A model generated the notes under the pieces. It made no database searches and had not been told where the DNA came from. It worked only from the letters and a program-made list of their open reading frames with translations. Positions 11,846 to 60,565 of a stretch of DNA of 64,000 nucleotides are shown piece after piece. The translations under genes were made by a program, and so were the position numbers. The number at the start of each line of letters is the position of its first letter. Position 1 is the stretch's first letter. The DNA comes from Aphrocallistes beatrix. Lineage: Eukaryota > Porifera > Hexactinellida > Sceptrulophora > Aphrocallistidae. Where the stretch lies: positions 1,116,001 to 1,180,000 of the forward strand of contig OY725505.1 of the NCBI GenBank assembly GCA_963281255.1. The letters run 5' to 3'.

Positions 11846-12353
11846 CAGGAGCACATGCATTAGTTTGAATCTGTATGTAGGCGTTAGTTCGAATCCTGTA
11901 TGTAGGCGTTAGTTCGAATCGAATTTGGCTATGTAGGCGTTAGTTCGAATAGAATTTAACCATGTAGGCGTTAGTTCGAATAGTATATAACTATGTAGGC
12001 GTTAGTTCGAATTAGAATTTGGCTATGTAGGCGTTAGTTCGAATAGAATTTAACTATGTAGGCGTTAGTTCGAATTAGAATTTGTCCATGTAGTCGTTGC
12101 AATTGTTACAAGTTTCTCCAATTTCTCATATTCTCAGCAGAAAATGCTGCTTTTCCCTCAGTTCTTAGAAATAGCTCTCCATAATGGCACTCAACTACCC
12201 CCTTCGTTCAGAAATGCCTTTTTCATCCTCAATTTTCTTCTATTCTCTAAAGAAAATGCTTCTTTTTCCTCAGTTCTTAGAAATATCTCTTCCAAATGCC
12301 ACTCAATGACAGTACTACATTGAAAATCTATTCGAACTAATGCTGCGTCCCCA
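11846..12353. mobile_element. Non-autonomous element carrying a 32-bp minisatellite
   Basis: Ends 'ggagcacatgcattagtttg' and the complement of 'ttcgaactaatgctgcgtcc' are imperfect inverted repeats. Inside, 11870-12095 holds about eight units of 'tatgtaggcgttagttcgaa' plus 'tagaatttaac', and 12110-12300 holds a duplicated 'ctcagttcttagaaata' segment. The minisatellite unit contains the 'ttagttcgaa' core of the terminal repeat. Confidence 0.65.
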
Positions 12354-12400
12354 CAAATTACAACTCTGGTTTATTTTTAAGGCAGGTCATGTATTATATA

Positions 12401-12690
12401 CAGTAATCTGACAGAAAATCTAGCAATGTTCGCAGTCAAGTTTTTCTCTTAGGATTATGATTATTCATCATCTCTGGTACAAAATGGAACCTGGTACCTT
12501 TTTCAAAATTTCTCCGATGACGTCATATTTAACAAAAATCGCTGTCGTCATATTTAACGGTGATAAAAAACTTCAATTTGATCGTATACTTAATCCGAAT
12601 AACTCATTCGAAACTAGAAGAGGAGAGTAATTTTTCATATTGGAACTACACCCATTATAATAAAGAGTCAAAAAGTACGATTGTTTATAT
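12401..12690 (+). repeat. Left terminal inverted repeat of the large transposon
   Basis: Pairs with 21063-21315. The left arm holds an extra ~30 bp ('acaaaaatcgctgtcgtcat') that duplicates its own TGACGTCAT-containing segment. Confidence 0.85.
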
Positions 12691-12939
12691 ATTTGTATTA
12701 TGGTTCTCATTCATCACCAGAATCCTCAGATGAGGAGAAGTGTGAAAATTCACTTACACTTGCATCTGAACTACTTTCACCAAGGTCTTCTTCTACATCT
12801 CCCTCTGAATAATTGTCTTCACAATCTGCAGCTGCTTCATATGTATCGTTTGTCACGTCTTTATTCAAATTTGACTTTTCAATATTCTTATAAAATTTAG
12901 TTTAATAGGTTATTTTTTTGCTTTTGTTAAGTATCGACG

Positions 12940-13311
12940 GGATACAGACTTTTCGTGACAGGACTTTTTGTGACGGACATTTCGTGACAAGACTTTTGTG
13001 ACAAGATAGGTACACCTATATTATATAATTGTTGTGATAAGGCGAAGTCATGATAATCATCCCTGAAGATAAAATACATATTGCATCTACATTATCAGTG
13101 TCATATAAATTAGTGAGAAGACAATTGGAAATTTCATTCTTTCTGGGATACAGACTTTTCGTATATCACTTGTATTTTATCTTCACAGATAATTATCATG
13201 ACTTCGCCTTACCACAACAATTATAGAATATAGGTATACCCATCTTGTCACGAAAAGTCTTTTCACGAAATGTCTCGTCACGAAAAGGCCTGTCTAGAAA
13301 AGTCTGTATCC
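12940..13311. mobile_element. Foldback element with ~130-bp inverted repeats
   Basis: Ends 'ggatacagacttttcgtgac' and its near-complement. The arms contain four to five 'ttttcgtgacaagac'-like short tandem units, then 'aaggcgaagtcatgataat' inverted at 13190-13210. It interrupts the transposon gene between 'LPQALKRAQIQTVIW' and its acidic tail. Confidence 0.8.
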
Positions 13312-14661
13312 TTGCCAAATAACTGTTTGTATTTGCGCTCTTTTTAATGCTTGTGGGAGAGAATCTGGATCAGGTGACAAGGACACAGATGACTTCCTTT
13401 TGTTGTTGATACAACCGCATTCTAGTTTGAAGATAGCTTTCACTCTTTTTACCACTATACATAATTGTAGCTATGAATTGCTTCAAATCTTTTTCTGTTT
13501 GCACAGTGTTACTTCCTTTTGTAGGTTACGTATTATATAGCAGTTTTGTGGAGCCTTTAATAAGTTCGCACTTTCCTAACTCTGAAAAATATGACATTGT
13601 GTCACATTCGGTTAGCGAATGGAATGGTGGGAGTATTCCGCATAATGTCTTTCCAAAAAAATTGACAATCAAACCAATATCTACAAACTTTTCGTGGTCT
13701 TATTTCATATACCATTTGTTAGTAATAGAGAAATGGCTGTATGTCCAGACAAGAAGAATCAGAACGTCTGTGTCCTTTGTTACCACTACCACATCTTGGC
13801 CTGACAGGATTGTATGCAGTATAAGTCGTGTATCTGCCTCTTCGTGATTGCAATCGATAAGCATACGATTACCAAGACTATCTATCCTGAATGTGTGCTA
13901 TTTGGATGTGACAATAAACGGGAATGGGAATTTAGATCTTCCCTCTGGTGATTTAAGAAAGTCTGAAATTATCGCTATTACAAATAGATCCTCCTTGTTG
14001 TTGCCTCGATGAAGAAAATCATCCCAGCGTAAGCCTTGTAGCATTTTTGGATCGACACTTTGAATATGGACTCTTTGGCCTTGCTCCCCTCTCTCTTGTC
14101 TTGTTCCTTCTCTCGCGCTCGTATCTTTGTAAGTGTAGTTAATGATTCCTATAAAAGATGGAAATTCTTTGAATGTTGTTCTTGCTTTCATTGATCTTAT
14201 AGCAGCCATTCCATCAACAAACCATGCACAATGCTGAGGAACGTTGTTAGAACACGACAGTGATGCAGATATCAAGTGATTTCTGAAATGAGCTTTGTTT
14301 GACTGCCTAAGACTGCATTTAGTTGTTGCAATCACCAGTGGAACGGTTGTGAGCGGATAATGCTTCTTCCATATTCACAGACTTAGAGACTTTCAATCCA
14401 AAAGCTTGCCTATCCTCTTTTAAGACCTGGATTGCCTTGGGTACTTTCTTCCTTTTCTCTATTCCGATACAAAGCTTGTTTTTCACAATTGGCTCATAAT
14501 TGCCCTTAATTCCATCAACGAAGCATTCTTTCAAGAAATTTCATACTGTTTGCTTCCGAGTTTTGCAGCCCCCATCATATAATTTACAATATTCGAAGGA
14601 ATTTCAACGCCAGTTGCAAATGATCTTGGCTTGTCATATGAGAACGGATCTATGCCATATA

Positions 14662-15225
14662 CGAGGGTCACTCGATAAGTTTTGAGCCTGGGGTAGTTGC
14701 TTCCATTTGATTGTGTTGAAAATTCCTAGGATTATTCATCTACCTATTATTACTTGTATCTTTGTCTTTGAGTTAGATTGGACAAGTTTCTAAAATATTA
14801 TGCCACATATAGTGGAGTGTCCTTGTGGACTCCGACACATTTGCAAGCAACTTCCTATGGAATTTTATTTATTCTCTTTATGGAAAAATGATAGTTGAGA
14901 ACAACTTTTGATAATTCAATATTATCAATGATGCGATATATTCACAATCCGGGGGGATTCTATGATTATCATATTTAAATTTCGTTTGCAAAACATAAAT
15001 AAATGTTCAAAGATATCCCAATTCAACACTTGTGGTTGTGTTTTCATAGAGGCTAATACAAAATATCTTAGACAATTTCTTCATTGCAATATTTTAGAAA
15101 CTTGTCCGATTGCAATCAAACTCAAAGTCAAAGATAATAATAGGTAGGTGAATAATCCTAGAAATTTTCAACAAAATCAAACGGAAGCAACTACTCCAGG
15201 CTCAAAACATATTGAGTGACCCTCG
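14662..15225. mobile_element. Foldback MITE, 564 bp, TA duplication
   Basis: Starts 'cgagggtcactcgataagt', ends 'attgagtgaccctcg', with TA on both sides (14660-14661, 15226-15227). Each arm is about 150 bp ('gattattcatctacctatta' inverted at 15140-15160). The terminus looks mariner-like. It splits the transposon gene between 'HSKHVTKQ' and 'FVDGIKGNYEP'. Confidence 0.85.
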
Positions 15226-16612
15226 TAGAACAAGTTGTTGCTTTTGTTTTGTCACATGTTTACTGTGAATTTTCTTACTACCACTGCACAGTTCATTATG
15301 CTTTGAGGAAGTTTTGAATGCAACCATATTGCGAAATTTTTCACGCAGTTTGCAGTGCATATGAATAGTACACACCCATGTGTTCACAGCAGAAATGTCA
15401 GTGCTAAATCCAGCACGGAATGGACCTGCAGTATCCTTTGTTAGTTTGTTAAAATGCTCCGTAATCAAGTCTCCATGAACAGATATGAACTTTTCCCCGG
15501 AGCCGCTTGCACCAAAACCCCGTTCTGACAAGTGTTGAAAAGCTTGTTTGTTCTCTGTGCACATGTACTGGAGAAAAACATGCTGGTAACTACAGTAACG
15601 GGCATAATTTTGATGATTGAATGCAAAGTTAAGGGAGAGCATTTCCCACTCAGCTTCAATATGCCAGCATAGATTTTCTTCTCGCACTGCAGATAGCATC
15701 GCCAGCATTGTGGATCCATCTTTAAGGTACATTATTGTGAAATGTCCTTCAGTGCCATCTTTGAAACAAAATCTTTGAAAAAAGAACATTAGAAACCAGG
15801 GCACTGAAATAATCATGGGATAAAACCTGATTCAAGGATTCATTGCTTGGGTTTGTCTAAGAATTTCGATCTTTTCTTTTAAGTCAGCGTCAGTTGTTCT
15901 GCTGTATGATTTGTTCAATGCGGAACTGAACTAATACATCAAAGCATTATTTATATATACGAATGCACCGGTAATAGTGACGTCCCTCTATCCACACACC
16001 ACTGTTGCATGCCTCTACAATGGTAACGCTTATATATTAATCGTTGCATCACTCGCAATTGGTGAAACCCACCCATCAACAGTAAAATATTCTTGTAAAG
16101 TTATTTGTCCTTCCACAGTATGTGACATAGCTTGGAGTATACTGCCTCGTCAGCATGAACAAATACATGGTCAACCTCTGAATCCTTGATTAAATCTAGC
16201 ATGGAATCCATATACTCTTTGAGCACAGGATAGTCTGGAGGTTCAAGTTTAACTGGTAGGTACTCTTGGATCATTTCGTCGGCACATAGTCAGATACCTA
16301 TAAGATATGCAAAAATATTTGATACGATTCTAAAAAACCTGGGAAATATTCATAATAGATGTTCTTATAACCGGTATCTACTGTACTAAAATTTAAGTGT
16401 GACTGTAATATGATTGTATTATTACTACAAGTACCTGCTTGTTGAAGGAAGTCCACGAGCCAAGTGGGTCGAAATAATCAGAAATGTCTGCTACGCATCC
16501 TGCTACTGACCAAGCTATGTCTTTCCGGAGACATCGTTCTAATTCTCCCTTGAAATTCATTTCAACGTGATTCTTAAATATAGGTGGTTTTTTTCCAATC
16601 ATGTAAGAGGCT

Positions 16613-19125
16613 GTTAATAATATTAATAATGATATACATTTATATAGCGCAGATTCCTTATTAATATGTACAATTCAATAAAAGTAAGTGTATTTTATGC
16701 ATGTACGTATTTGTGTGTATGTATGCGTATGTATGCGCATGTATGTGTATGTATGTTTGTAAGGTATGTAGTATATGCACTGAAATTAATTTAATGAGTA
16801 TTTATTTAAGTGGATGTGTCGTCCGCGATGCAGAAAAGATGAGTTTTCAGGAGTTTTTTGAAGAGAAGAAGTGAACGGGCATTCCGAATGCTCGGACGAT
16901 CACCCAGAGTTTTGGAAGATTTGATAGTAGGTTGTTCAAGGAGGATGGCATTGGATGATCGTAGAGTAGGATTGGATGACTTAACCTGTATGACTTGGAT
17001 GATATAGTCCGCAGCAAGAGAATGGATGGCTTTGTAAGTTATGAGGAGAATTTTGAAGAGGATGCGATGTTTAACAGGCAGCCAGTGGAGGTAAATAAGA
17101 AGAGGAGATGACGAAAAGGTACGAGAGACATTGTAGATAAGCCTGGCTGCACTGTTCTGGACTCGCTGGAGTCGAGCTAAGAGGGATGAGGGGCAAACAT
17201 ACAAGATGCTGTTACAATAATCAAGACGAGATGTGATAAGAGAATTAACAAGAGTTTCACAGGCTTCCCTAGAGGGATACTTTCTAATACGCCGGATGTT
17301 ATAGATGTAGTAGATGCAGGCTGAGGCAACTTTGCTGACCTGAGTAGACATTGAGAGGGTATTGTCGAGCCAAGTTCCAAGATTCCGTACTTCTTTGGAA
17401 GAAGAGATTCTCGACTCACCAACAGAGATGCTATCAGTTTGAACCTTAAATAGTTGTTGACGAGTATAAGGAACTCAGTCTTGGTATCATTGATAAGCAA
17501 CTTGTTGGTGAGGATCCAGGAACGGATCGCGGAGATGCAAGATTGAATGGCGGAGAAATCAGATTCTTCAGAAGAGATGGAACCGGGTTTAAAATAAAGA
17601 TAGACCTGAGTATCGTCGGTATAGCAGTGCATTTAAGGCAGTTGGGACCTAATGAGGTAGAATAGAGGACTAGTATAGAGGCTAAAGAGAAGCGGACCAA
17701 GACAAGAACCCTGAGGAACTTCGTGTTGGCCCGGGATATTGGTGGAATCAGAACCCTTAATCGAGACGAATTTAGTCCTATCAGTGAGGTAAGATTCATA
17801 CCAAGACAGAGAAGAGCCGCTAATGCCGAAATGAGACTGGAGACGGTTGAGTTGGTTGGTATGGTCGACGGTGTCGAAGGCTGAGCTAAGATCAAGAAGA
17901 ACCAGAAGAGATACGTGTTGGCGATTCATGCTGATGAGGATGTCGTTTGTGACCTTCTGGAGCCCAGTTTCCGTACTGTGGTGTTTACGATAGGCAGACT
18001 GCGTCTCGGGGAAGAGATGATGTAATGTAGGATGATTCACGCCCTGGATGGAAGCGGCCCTCTCAGTGATCTTAGAAATGAAAGAAAGATTGCTAAGTGG
18101 ACGATAGTTAGAGAAGATGGGATCAAGATTTGGTCTTTTAAGTTTGGGCAAGATGATGGTGCGCTTCCAGGGAGAAGGAAAATGACCAGTGTAGAGGGAA
18201 CCATTTACGATTTTCGTAAGGATGGGCGCTAGGATGGGTAGAGATGATTTGACCAAGGGTGCTGGGATATGATCGAAGATGCAAGATTTATTAGGAGCAG
18301 AGGAAACAAGCGAAACAATTTCTTCCTTAGATAATTCTTTGAATTGATTGAAAAGTATGTTGGGATTCGATGTTTGGATTATCTGAGGAGGTAACGGAAG
18401 ACGACGATGCATTTGAATCAATGGTGGAACGGATGTTATTTACCTTAAGAACAAAGAAGTTGGCGAGTTCCTGAGTAAGAGCAGCCTTATCAACATGAGG
18501 TGGTAGGACCTGCTGGCGTAAGCCGAGAAGTGTGTTAGCCTTATTGAAGAGTTAGCGCTGGTCATGACAGGACTGACTGATCCAATCAGAATAGAAACTG
18601 CGACGTTCCATGTTCCTCAGGTCAGTCACAAGATTCCTCTGATGCTTGAATTCAGCCAAATGGTCAGGGTCATTAGACTGGCGCCGCTCCTGTTCAGCTT
18701 TCCTTCTCGCACGCTTGGCCTGCTTGATGCTACTGGTGAACCAAGGGACACGGGGACGGGTGACTATGGTTTTGGATCGCGGAGGAGCGTCCTGATCATA
18801 GATGGAGGATAGGGTGCTGTTATATTATACAAGAAGTTCCTCAAGATGCTCAGGTGGGTTAGCACAGAGATCAGAGGAAGCGAGATCAGCAAGAACGATT
18901 GGGCGGTTGATGGATTTGGAACGTTAGGAAATCTCCTGAGAGGAAAGAGAATTGGAAAGCGAGAGACTACAAGAGATGGAGAAATGGCCAGAGAATAGAT
19001 GGACAGGAGAGGGATCAGAGGATGATGTGTCAGCAGAACGGGATATTATTAGATCAAGAACGTGACTCTTCTCATGAGTTGGCTGATTCACATGCTGGAT
19101 CAAGGATAGAGAACGAACTCTCGAT
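16613..19125 (-). mobile_element. L2/CR1-type LINE, 5'-truncated
   Basis: The 3' end (low coordinates) is 'gcgctatataaatgtatatc' followed by an AT-rich 'attattaatatta' tail, typical of L2-type LINEs, preceded by a (catacata)n stretch. At the other end only the last part of the endonuclease remains ('SHVLDLIISRSADTSS'). No poly(A). It lies inside the large transposon, in the same orientation as its gene, between 'SQLA' and 'TASYMIGKK'. Confidence 0.85.
16806..19110 (-). pseudogene. LINE reverse transcriptase (L2/CR1-type), broken
   Basis: Order along the minus strand: endonuclease C-terminus; linker 'RVPWFTSSIKQAKRARRKAE' and 'LFNKANTLLGLRQQVLPP'; RT domain with 'DPIFSNYRPLSNLSFISKI', 'AYRKHHSTETGLQKVTND', motif A 'LLVLLDLSSAFDTVDH', motif B 'PQGSCLGPLLFSLYTSPL', and motif C 'CYTDDTQVYLYF' (Y-T-D-D instead of Y-A-D-D). 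The C-terminal domain has 'RLDYCNSILYVCPSSLLARL', 'QNSAARLIYN' and 'LHWLPVKHRILFKILLITYK'. A TAA at 17633-17635 sits just before motif C, a frameshift lies near 17450, and another stop near 18555. It copies RNA into DNA at a nicked target. This copy is dead. Confidence 0.88.
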
Positions 19126-19513
19126 CCTATTTATGCTAGGAGAGTGCTAGCTGACTTCCCAGACGGATAGCATTGTTCGATGCAGAATGATTGCCTTTGT
19201 GTAGGTAATCAATAGTTTCCTTGCTTCCAGTCATCCTGTGAACAATCAAACCTGAAAAGGAAGATATTTCAAATAACATTTATCGATTTCTGCTCACTCA
19301 TCTATTTTCTAAATTAAATATATGAAAAAAGTAAAGGGCAACAACACCACAAAAAACATGACTAACCTAGAATGGCTTGTTTTGGAGAAGGTTGCTTTGT
19401 GATCAACGATTCCCTGTTTCACTGGCAAAATTTTGTTGCTGCCAATTTTGTGTTTGTAACACACATGCCATAGTCATTTTTATTCGCACTATCCTTAAGC
19501 GTATGATATATAG

Positions 19514-19678
19514 CAGCGCTGTCCAACAGGCGGCCCGCGGCCTTGCTTTGTGCGACCCGCGTTGCGTCCAAAATGCCTCTATCCATACCCATCCCGAGTG
19601 CACGCCCCTGTATTGCGGCCCGCCACTAAATGGTATGAAGCAGTTACGGCCTGAAGTAAATATAGTTGGACAGCCCTG
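19514..19678. mobile_element. hAT-type MITE, 165 bp
   Basis: Ends 'cagcgctgtccaac' and 'gttggacagccctg' (one mismatch) are flanked by the exact 8-bp duplication 'atatatag' (19506-19513, 19679-19686). The interior is GC-rich ('ggcggcccgcggcc'), unlike its AT-rich surroundings. It interrupts the large transposon's gene. Confidence 0.92.
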
Positions 19679-21062
19679 ATATATAGCATTCTAATGCTCA
19701 AGAAGAGGTCCTTCGTCAAGTTTTTGTATAAATTTTTCAATTGACAGTTGCATTTCTTTGTCAGTTTCTTGTCTGTGGTTCATCTTTCTCCGGATCATTT
19801 GACCGAATGCTCTCACTAAATCATCATCCCTCAGCCCACATCTGTGAAGACCAGCAATTGTATAATTCCAAGGGTTTGTATCAGAAGCATATACAAGAAG
19901 ATACTTTGGACGGCCTTGAAAGATGTGTCTTGTTTAAATTCTTTTTCATTGCGCCTCCTTAGGTTTCTCGGGTTCTTAATAACTGGCTCTTCAAATCCTA
20001 CCTCTTCGCTTAAGCTCATTATATCATCTAACAGTTCATGAAAGAGACAAGCACATTTGTTTATTATGATTTTTCGTTTGATGTCAACTAGGAAAGACTG
20101 AATGGCCAGTTCCTTTTCTCCGTCTTTTTCTTTGCTTTCAACAGCAATGTAAGGATGTGCATAGGAAGAATAGCAATTTTTGTAGTAATATATCAGCTGA
20201 GAAAACGTCACAAGCATCAACTTTCAAAATTCCATCTAACCTATAAGAGGCCTGGTAATAGGCGTGAGCCTTTTTAAGTTGGAAGCATTATTTATGTTCC
20301 AAAATTCTTGTTTCTGCCCGACCCTCTGAACATCTGCCTAGCCCACCTTCGTTATATGGCAAGCCATCAGTGTTCTTTGTCTCATAGCAGATGAAACATA
20401 TTTTCTTGTCGTTACTAACTTTCGAACGAAGTTGCCTATTGTGTTGATCTTGTGGTGGATCCAACCTCAGCGAGTTTTCTCCACTTTCAATCTCCTTTGG
20501 AGACTTACCCATATCGTTGAGACTAACTAGCAACTTTTGTTCCGAATCTTAACCTGTATGAATTATGCACAACACCATGGGGTTCAGTAGACCCTGAAAT
20601 CTTCTCAAAACGGTAGTAAAAATTTATGCCTTATCTTGAACATCTATGTTTAGTTCACTTCAATCCTTGGCATCTTTACAAAATTTATCAAAACCACTAG
20701 TGGTTGTATTTCTATAGTCTTTTTCCTTATTACTTCATTGCAAATTAAACAATTTGAACTGTCCTTATTTCCTGGACTGAAAAGGGAACACACCTTTGAT
20801 GTGATTTCTTTTCTGTTTCTTCCATTTTACTTGTGTCTAAACAATATCACAATTAATGATGTAGCTCGACTTCCTCTAACACCTCCTTAGGAATCTATGT
20901 ATTGAAAAATGTTGGGTGAAAGAGACTACTAAATTTTGTCAGTACTGTAGAAGCGAAACTAGCAGACGGTAGGATTACAGACAAGTTATAGCAGTGAAGA
21001 AGCTTTGAATTGCGGTTAGAATAGAATAAAATAGAAAAATTTGAAATACAAATTTAAAAAAG

Positions 21063-21315
21063 ATCGTACTTTTTGACTCTTTAGTATAATGGGTGTAGTT
21101 CCAATATGAAAATTACTCTCCTCCTAGTTCTTTCGAATGAACTATCAGATTAAGTATACGATCAAATTGATTTCATCACCGTTAAACATGACGTAATCGG
21201 AGTAATTTTGAAAAAGGTACCAGGTTCCATTTTGTACAAGAGATGATGAATAATCATAATCTGAAGAGAAAAACTTGACTGCGAACATTGCTAGATTTTT
21301 CTGTCAGATTCCCCG
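21063..21315 (-). repeat. Right terminal inverted repeat of the large transposon
   Basis: Reverse complement of 12401-12690 with roughly 10% divergence by eye plus one indel of about 30 bp. Confidence 0.85.
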
Positions 21316-21965
21316 TATATTAATTAGTTTAACCATCTTCTACCGCATCCATAATTTAAAAACTGACAAATTCGTCTTTAGTTAAGAATAATATAAACAA
21401 ATAGATAAAGGGGGAATGCAAATATTATATCCTTAGTAATTTTCTCATTCACCAACTACAATTGGCTATACATACATTTAACACTCATTTTCAGCTCGCT
21501 TACCATAAATATTGTTTGTGAAGAACGAAGTTTGGAAACAGATAACCAAGACTTCTGGGTTGGATATTTGTGACCAACTAGACCAACAGCGAATGAAACA
21601 GAAACAAACTAATTGTGATAAACTTGTACCTGTAATACAAATTATATTCTTTTGATCTGCAGGAATTAACCTTCCGTGAACATGGAAATATCTGCAGAAT
21701 TAAATATTTCAGAACCAAATGAAAACGATCAAAGAGGTCTTTGGGCTACGACTTAGGATTCGTAGGACTATTTCGGACTATTTGTATTATGTTCAATAAA
21801 AGATAATGGCCCCACCAATCCGACCGGTAGCTACGCATATGTATTCTGACGAAGCAAGTATATTTGTCTGACTACGACCATCACAAAGTCTTATTTGTGC
21901 CATTCAAAGAAAGTATTTATATTATTAGCAGAAATACCTTGGAAATTTATTGTGGCTATGGCAGG

Positions 21966-59334: not shown

Positions 59335-60565
59335 TATATTGAATGCAAAGTATAGGAATGTACCATTGAAGGGAGAATTATGATGTGAGGTTGAATACTG
59401 ATGTGGACAAAATCGAAGACAAAATATTTGCTTCAGCCACCAAACATGTACCGAAGATTCATGTTTAGGCAGGATTTTCTTCCATGGGCAACACTGAGAA
59501 GTTCACTGAGAACAATGATATGTTATTACAAATAATGGAGGGCCATTTACTTATTCAGGCACATATATATCTTGAAGATCGGAGGCGATTGATCATGGAT
59601 AGTGATCCTAAACTTACCTCATGTAAAGTAAAATCTTGACCCATAAATCAGGTTCCTTAGCAAAAGAAAAATGCTCCAGCGACTTCGAGATAGGCAATTG
59701 AAGTTAACCAGGCAGTCTTTCCAATGCTAGTGAATGAATACACAGTGTCGCAGCCTGTAAGTGCATGGAACTTTGGAAAGGTAGCAGGTTTTTTCGTCCC
59801 AAATCCGGTGCTACTTCATGAATTGCTATAACCCGAAGCAATAAACGACACAAACCGTACCACTGTAGAGACAATGTGAGGATACCGATTCCTATCTTAT
59901 CTTCGACCTGAGTACCCCTAGAATATTCAAATCCCCCTTTGGTCCTCCAGTGGTTCGGGTTAGCATCGTCGCTGATGGCAATGTTTACAAATATAAATAA
60001 TATATATTTTATTATTCGATATTCAGATATGAGTTCAGTTTTAATAATTTCCTACTCTAATTTATAATCCCATTATGCTATATAAATAATATAGAAACAA
60101 ATTTTTTGTTTTTATTTTATTAAATTCACAATAGGTAAACAAAATATTAAGTATCAGATACATATAATTAACTTTTAAATGATGAAACATAATGAGTTTG
60201 ATAAAGCATTTTTTTTAAGATTTAAATCATCAAATTTTAAGATGCCCTGAGTGTGAGATTGTAGCAGAGTGGCTCATTTTTGGAAGCCAGTATTATAGTC
60301 CAGTAAATCTACGAAATTTGAGGTCCAATGGGATAAAATTGCAACAGAATTTATTTAATGGGTTAAATGAACGTGGGAGGCTACATAATTAGCATACTAA
60401 AAACCCCAAATCCCTTTGGTAGAACATCCCTAAATACCACTTTACATGTTGGGTTATAAGTTCTGTCCAATTGTTAAAATACCGTAATTCAAATATTAGT
60501 GTTTAGATTGTCTTATAATTTATAGGAATTAACCACATATTATTTCTTTAAGAAATTCATTTAAC
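59335..60565. other. Gap after spectrin exon D
   Basis: 59380-59850 has coding-like but broken + frames ('VFPMLVNEYTVSQPVSAWNF') that I cannot assign. 60000-60565 is plain AT-rich sequence. Confidence 0.35.

Follow-up and report, generated by a model that had tools for sequence, protein, structure and literature searches.

The nuclease of the AcademX transposons is XPG-like, the X standing for XPG, and the AcademH transposons, a lineage reportedly due to Kojima in 2020, carry an Academ-type transposase. The Academ superfamily goes back to Kapitonov and Jurka 2010 (as cited in PMC4455052) and encodes a DDD/E transposase (PMC9587614). AcademX elements encode a nuclease and feature target site duplications (TSDs) of 3 or 4 bp, while AcademH elements encode a helicase, their TSDs measuring 9 or 10 bp, according to PMC10045372, which relates the length of the duplication to the encoded enzyme (AcademH is also mentioned in PMC10799480). 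Among bivalves, curated Academ elements have a mean length of 5565 bp (PMC10294476). A DDD/E transposon with an extra nuclease is also represented by the Kolobok lineages KolobokE, KolobokP and KolobokD (PMC9587614). Here these systems are compared with an element bounded by terminal inverted repeats (TIRs), found at 12397-21319 of a stretch of 64,000 nucleotides, "the window", from the sponge Aphrocallistes beatrix (contig OY725505.1, positions 1,116,001 to 1,180,000 of the forward strand). The element is likely to be an autonomous DNA transposon of the cut-and-paste type, now dead, that fits best in Academ, as nuclease-bearing AcademX. This kind of transposon is known, and the copy is probably a new member of it.

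The genome that contains the window, eukaryotic in its gene content, measures 100.5 Mb, in 28 contigs; the loci are indicated by L numbers. Relatives that are better preserved carry in their C-terminal domain, from first to last, D-[AG] following a hydrophobic strand, V-x-D-x-Y, E-A-D, D-T-D and G-C-D. EAD, DTD and CD are invariant in all 6 rows of the alignment, and the second acid is D in 4 of the 5 rows covering the site, the window copy featuring Y. The order of acids (D...D...E-x-D...D-x-D...G-C-D, followed by a GxGK-like turn) is that of the Rad2-family nucleases FEN1, EXO1, GEN1 and XPG, which have a PIN-like fold; the initial annotation of the window had proposed such an order with reference to FEN1/XPG-type enzymes. 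The transposon domain differs from these enzymes in being fused to a putative transposase, and in the long insert that separates its second acid motif from the third.

Relationship to these nucleases was evaluated by hhalign, using as reference pieces of EXO1, GEN1, XPG and FEN1 from the same genome, whose EXO1 was verified against PDB EXO1 (E = 1.1e-87). Comparison of 11 transposon fragments, from 9 loci, with 6 fragments from the 4 reference genes gave a score of 43.5 (probability 80, E = 1.3e-5) over 196 aligned columns, a score reached by none of 200 column shuffles (mean 11.1, maximum 16.9). Omitted from this comparison were L021, which nearly duplicates L025, and L027, which nearly duplicates L028, as well as L023, L024, L026, L073, L075 and the window copy. 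A smaller comparison, three against three sequences, scored 39.6 (probability 63; 0 of 100 shuffles, maximum 23.2). Four of the five acid motifs are placed in register by hhalign: the second acid, EAD, DTD and GCD. When the PIN profile was matched to single sequences, EXO1 scored 26.5, GEN1 25.1 and XPG 20.2, while 13 unrelated proteins ranged from 9.9 to 19.6. Homology of the C-terminal domain to FEN1-type nucleases (EXO1/GEN1/XPG/FEN1) is supported by these profile comparisons.

Upstream of the nuclease, L054 (described below), L021 and L069 share a second series of motifs: D-N-[IS]-D, [DE]-[EQ]-[AP]-[IL]-[YF], G-[GA]-[FL]-H and D-x3-[EK]-x2/3-N. This string resembles the D, D, C/DxxH, E series of hAT, P, MuDR and Kolobok (PMC9587614, PMC8230255). 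In L069, the D of the second core site is replaced by E and the E of the last one by K, substitutions which may be what a decayed copy shows. The window copy retains the last three of the four motifs and matches the Pfam family DUF6589 above the cut-off (E = 8.6e-7), while the match of L054 falls below it (E = 0.003); among the scanned pieces, DUF6589 is the only Pfam match over the cut-off, the others being weak and unrelated. Motifs and 3-bp staggered duplications together suggest that the upstream region is a DDD/E core. In the initial annotation, a PIN-fold enzyme had been proposed to act instead of an RNase-H-fold DDE transposase: this finds no support, as the same protein carries a D...D-E...GGFH...D-x3-E-x2-N series, resembling that of DDD/E transposases, along with a DUF6589 match.

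Association of the gene with its TIRs, indicated at the outset as a check of the annotation, is observed in several elements. The TIR of the window occurs three times in the genome: as its two arms and at a third site, not more than 0.8 kb from another remnant of the same gene. In L025, inverted arms of about 350 bp enclose open reading frames of 665 and 509 aa; arms of 325 bp in L027 and of 213 bp in L028 surround the same type of gene. Three families of the genome (L025, L027, L028) thus share the TIR-gene-TIR layout, each with its own arms. In one search with the PIN domain, 52 stretches of the genome matched at E <= 0.01, some elements containing several of them.

Nine copies were inspected for TSDs. 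Exact 3-bp duplications, none longer, are present in each of the five other copies whose two tips can be read (Table 1), the probability of a single 3-bp match by chance being about 0.02; the L028-type tip was placed with the help of longer flanks. The remaining four are the window copy, C11a and C7, in which one end is truncated or diverged, and C11b, whose flanks were not extended; the C6 pair was left out. TA begins the tips of all six copies, that is, the five just mentioned and the one in the window. In the latter, both tips start with TATAC and are flanked by TTA, graded as a probable TSD, weaker than in the other copies, because a 1-bp indel is required in one tip: when 18 offsets of the tips are scanned without gaps, the only matches are of 3 bp within an AT run, at the two outermost offsets.

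The features of the window copy are reported in Table 1. The inverted repeats of about 290 bp, some 8.9 kb apart, described in the initial annotation are real: four arm pairs were found by an inverted-repeat scan within 12415-12699 and 21045-21299, the left arm as BLAST query matches the right one with 82% identity over 304 query bases (E = 6.6e-83), and the arms, once extended to the tips, measure 303 and 275 bp, their alignment including 38 gap columns. Homology to relatives (tblastn) reveals one minus-strand gene, running from N to C terminus through 20500-19682, 16611-15232 and 14498-13217. The single gene initially annotated is correct for the element itself, but the interval also contains a long interspersed nuclear element (LINE) and an inverted-repeat insertion. 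The LINE, which encodes a reverse transcriptase (match to RVT_1, E = 4e-17), is nested in the gene, where 16615-19160 spans 2545 bp in the window vs 257 bp at the same place in L023; the other insertion, about 564 bp long and having inverted repeats of 140 bp, also lies inside the gene and is absent from the L024 copy. The two insertions add about 2.9 kb in comparison with L023 and L024: about one third of the 8.9 kb consists of later insertions, and without them the element would measure about 6 kb.

The gene of the window copy is interrupted by in-frame stops and frame changes. The C-terminal half is broken by a TAG, a TAA and one frame change, and four PIN-side motifs are distributed over three contiguous pieces in the same frame (13526-14374), split by TAA and TAG. 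The motifs FVDGMA, EEADTR, TKDTDVL and ECDTMS, on which the initial annotation relied, were all located on the minus strand, and the replacement of the Gly of GCDT by Glu (TECDTMS) is as originally described; the second expected acid of the nuclease is lost in addition, INYTY being found where four relatives keep D. Because of the Y at the second acid, the Gly to Glu change in GCD, the broken frame and the two large insertions, the element of the window copy cannot work. Ratios of nonsynonymous to synonymous substitution (0.26 and 0.41 for L025-L021; 0.80 for L027-L028; 0.54, 0.66 and 1.23 for window pairs) are too noisy for any claim of selection.

Table 1. Features of the transposon copy in the window, and target duplications of other copies
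Feature	Position	Strand	Evidence or remark
Probable TSD, left (TTA)	12394-12396		equals 21320-21322, allowing a 1-bp tip indel
Left TIR	12397-12699		254/270 aligned bases identical to right arm
Acidic C-terminal tail, 64-aa open piece	12707-12901	-	DNA match to L024 over 12592-12938; protein of L025 likewise ends in an acidic tail
C-terminal half with PIN/FEN1-like nuclease domain	13217-14498	-	tblastn with L025 (E = 1.2e-61), L021, L028, L054
TECDTMS, last acid motif (relatives: GCD)	13592-13612	-	alignment and hhalign
TKDTDVL, fourth acid motif	13760-13780	-	alignment and hhalign
HEEADTR, third acid motif, matching EAD/EAE of EXO1/FEN1	13826-13846	-	alignment and hhalign
GIINYTYKD, second-acid site, D to Y in window	14123-14149	-	alignment of relatives
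FVDGMA, first PIN acid	14204-14221	-	motif location
Nested insertion, arms 14660-14799 and 15088-15227	14662-15225		inverted-repeat scan; absent from L024
Putative DDE transposase core	15232-16611	-	DUF6589; tblastn with L021, L025, L054
GDLITEH, core motif	15454-15474	-	motif location
GGFH, core motif	16062-16073	-	motif location
HADEAVY, core motif	16137-16157	-	motif location
LINE-like retrotransposon region interrupting the gene	16616-19159	-	RVT_1; length vs L023
N-terminal part of the gene	19682-20500	-	tblastn with L025 N-terminal open reading frame, E = 5.9e-30
Right TIR	21045-21319		pairs with left arm; BLAST and alignment
Probable TSD, right (TTA)	21320-21322		tip alignment with left TTA
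Target duplications of other copies			GTA (L025), CAA (L021), TAC (L027), GTT (C9:1.07 Mb), AAG (C1:9.93 Mb); tip/flank comparison

Other repeats are found close to the element. Units of 25-32 bp (TATGTAGGCGTTAGTTCGAAT) are repeated in tandem at 11871-12076, outside the left TIR, and similar sequence lies near the L024 copy; a foldback at 12940-13311, near the 3' end of the gene, has arms of 85 bp and contains short repeats of the TCACGAAAAG type. About 38 kb away, at 59657-59815 on the minus strand, the window contains a separate remnant of this type of gene, which resembles L028 (64% identity over 47 aa) and includes HALTGCDTVYSF. In L025, the inner 185 bp of the TIR (L025:3531-3718; query bases 172-358) match a high-copy repeat, as shared or captured sequence: 40 of 1088 candidates were scored, including five inverted pairs 1.5-1.9 kb apart. 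L076 (63-641, minus strand), a divergent relative from the same genome, retains GCDTTSS...GKKSA, but its DTD stretch is replaced by EDMDLLVLLL, a wording nearer to the SEDMD of FEN1.

An uninterrupted frame is available from L054 (JAJRVU010000273.1), a 6.5-kb contig in a metagenome-assembled genome of Planctomycetota: its frame of 1466 aa, open at the 5' end, includes both halves, the putative core at residues 294-984 and the nuclease at 986-1300, and a cysteine-rich tail. The flank is AT-rich and devoid of long frames, and the record is therefore probably contaminated with eukaryote DNA, rather than carrying a bacterial gene. Of 135 pattern matches in prokaryote contigs, L054 was the only locus to emerge; no relatives of the transposon family came from viral contigs, nor any for the FEN1-type alignment, and phages gave no match to the L054 protein.

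With AcademX, as described, the window family shares TIRs around one large transposase gene encoding a large protein, a size of about 6 kb before the insertions, 3-bp TSDs, a putative DDD/E core and a nuclease recognized by profile homology; no difference emerged, in a comparison made by description only and with a decayed window copy. AcademH, in contrast, features a helicase and 9-10 bp duplications, where the window family features a nuclease and 3 bp. The Kolobok lineages differ in their nucleases, which are of lambda-exonuclease, His-Me finger or DnaQ type, and in their TTAA duplications (PMC9587614). The protein family had initially been presented as uncharacterised: this is probably not so, since TSD length and architecture fit the Academ superfamily. 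A literature search retrieved nothing relevant joining Academ with XPG, or XPG or FEN1/PIN with transposase. It seems that the FEN1-like nature of a domain from a named superfamily was here rediscovered from sequence alone, the domain being an addition to a probable transposase.

A number of results weigh against this placement, or against one of its parts. The Academ assignment is derived from TSD length, architecture and general background on the superfamily. As to the nuclease, a Pfam scan of the pieces at permissive thresholds revealed no PIN/XPG family (XPG_I/XPG_N), and the domain is therefore a distant relative, not a member of that Pfam family; sequence searches of PDB with the PIN profiles retrieved no FEN1 or EXO1, only one chance-like match each. 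The first PIN acid, though present as D, is unaligned in both hhalign comparisons, and the single XPG piece scores barely above the best unrelated protein. Degenerate remnants deviate from the motifs: L023 features FVNGM and EEVD, L071 EEVD, L072 GDVD and GNDY, and L076 shows no clear EAD. The AlphaFold model of the PIN domain, built on 2 alignment rows, is too poor to use (mean predicted local distance difference test score, pLDDT, 35.5), and a PDB search with it retrieved nothing at E 0.001, a result uninformative at this model quality. The model of the core region is equally too poor to use (pLDDT 34.6). The core profile scores 9.9-21.4 against 7 transposase pieces of the genome and 12.9-17.9 against 5 non-transposases, with a poor alignment around the first motif, and the window shows no DNxD motif where one would be expected. 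Finally, two of the five TSD-bearing copies, C9 and C1, are only 1.4-2.0 kb long and are recognized by their TIR alone.

The PIN homology, and a core that gave neither a usable model nor a clear profile match to other DDE families, would both suit the version of the initial annotation, in which the PIN/FEN1-like nuclease itself moves the element, with no working DDE transposase. This is nevertheless very unlikely: the upstream D...D...GGFH...E series recurs in independent families, together with a DUF6589 match, and the 3-bp staggered duplications are as made by DDE transposases. Moreover, FEN1-type enzymes cut DNA, and joining of strands is not known of them. That TIRs and gene are separate units, overlapping by accident, can hardly be credited, even in an interval full of nested repeats such as the LINE and foldback elements: the third genomic TIR match lies near the gene, L025, L027 and L028 repeat the TIR-gene-TIR layout, and a BLAST search of the genome with the window TIR revealed no copies around unrelated coding content.

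A DDD/E transposon with a PIN/FEN1-like nuclease might also represent an unnamed sister superfamily, distinct from Academ; the comparison by description only leaves room for it, Pfam offers just DUF6589, and the literature search found no paper using that word. The element agrees with the description of AcademX in the length of its TSDs, in its size, in having a single large protein and in the nuclease, which makes this unlikely, and favors placement in Academ.

As judged from the relatives, the intact AcademX-like element would encode one protein of about 1500-1600 aa, composed of an N-terminus with Cys pairs, a putative DDD/E (RNase-H-like) core and a C-terminal PIN/FEN1-like nuclease. The core would bind the TIRs, cut one strand at each end and insert the element with a 3-bp stagger, while the flap-type nuclease would trim or cut the other strand, or process flaps and gaps at donor or target. 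Strand transfer by the DDE core, with the flap nuclease handling the other strand or leftover flaps, would be the most likely division of tasks. That the fused FEN1-like nuclease is indeed a working part of transposition, the DDE core taking one strand and the PIN domain cutting or trimming the other, is a possible, though rather doubtful, proposal.

The copy in the window is a dead one, of unexceptional interest. The fusion of a transposase with a flap-type repair nuclease would, in turn, be a natural two-enzyme cutting machine, whose nuclease role is made testable by the 1466-aa frame of L054 and by the low-divergence copies of the genome. If true, two-enzyme cutting would explain why TSDs are 3-4 bp long in nuclease-bearing Academ elements and 9-10 bp long in those with a helicase.

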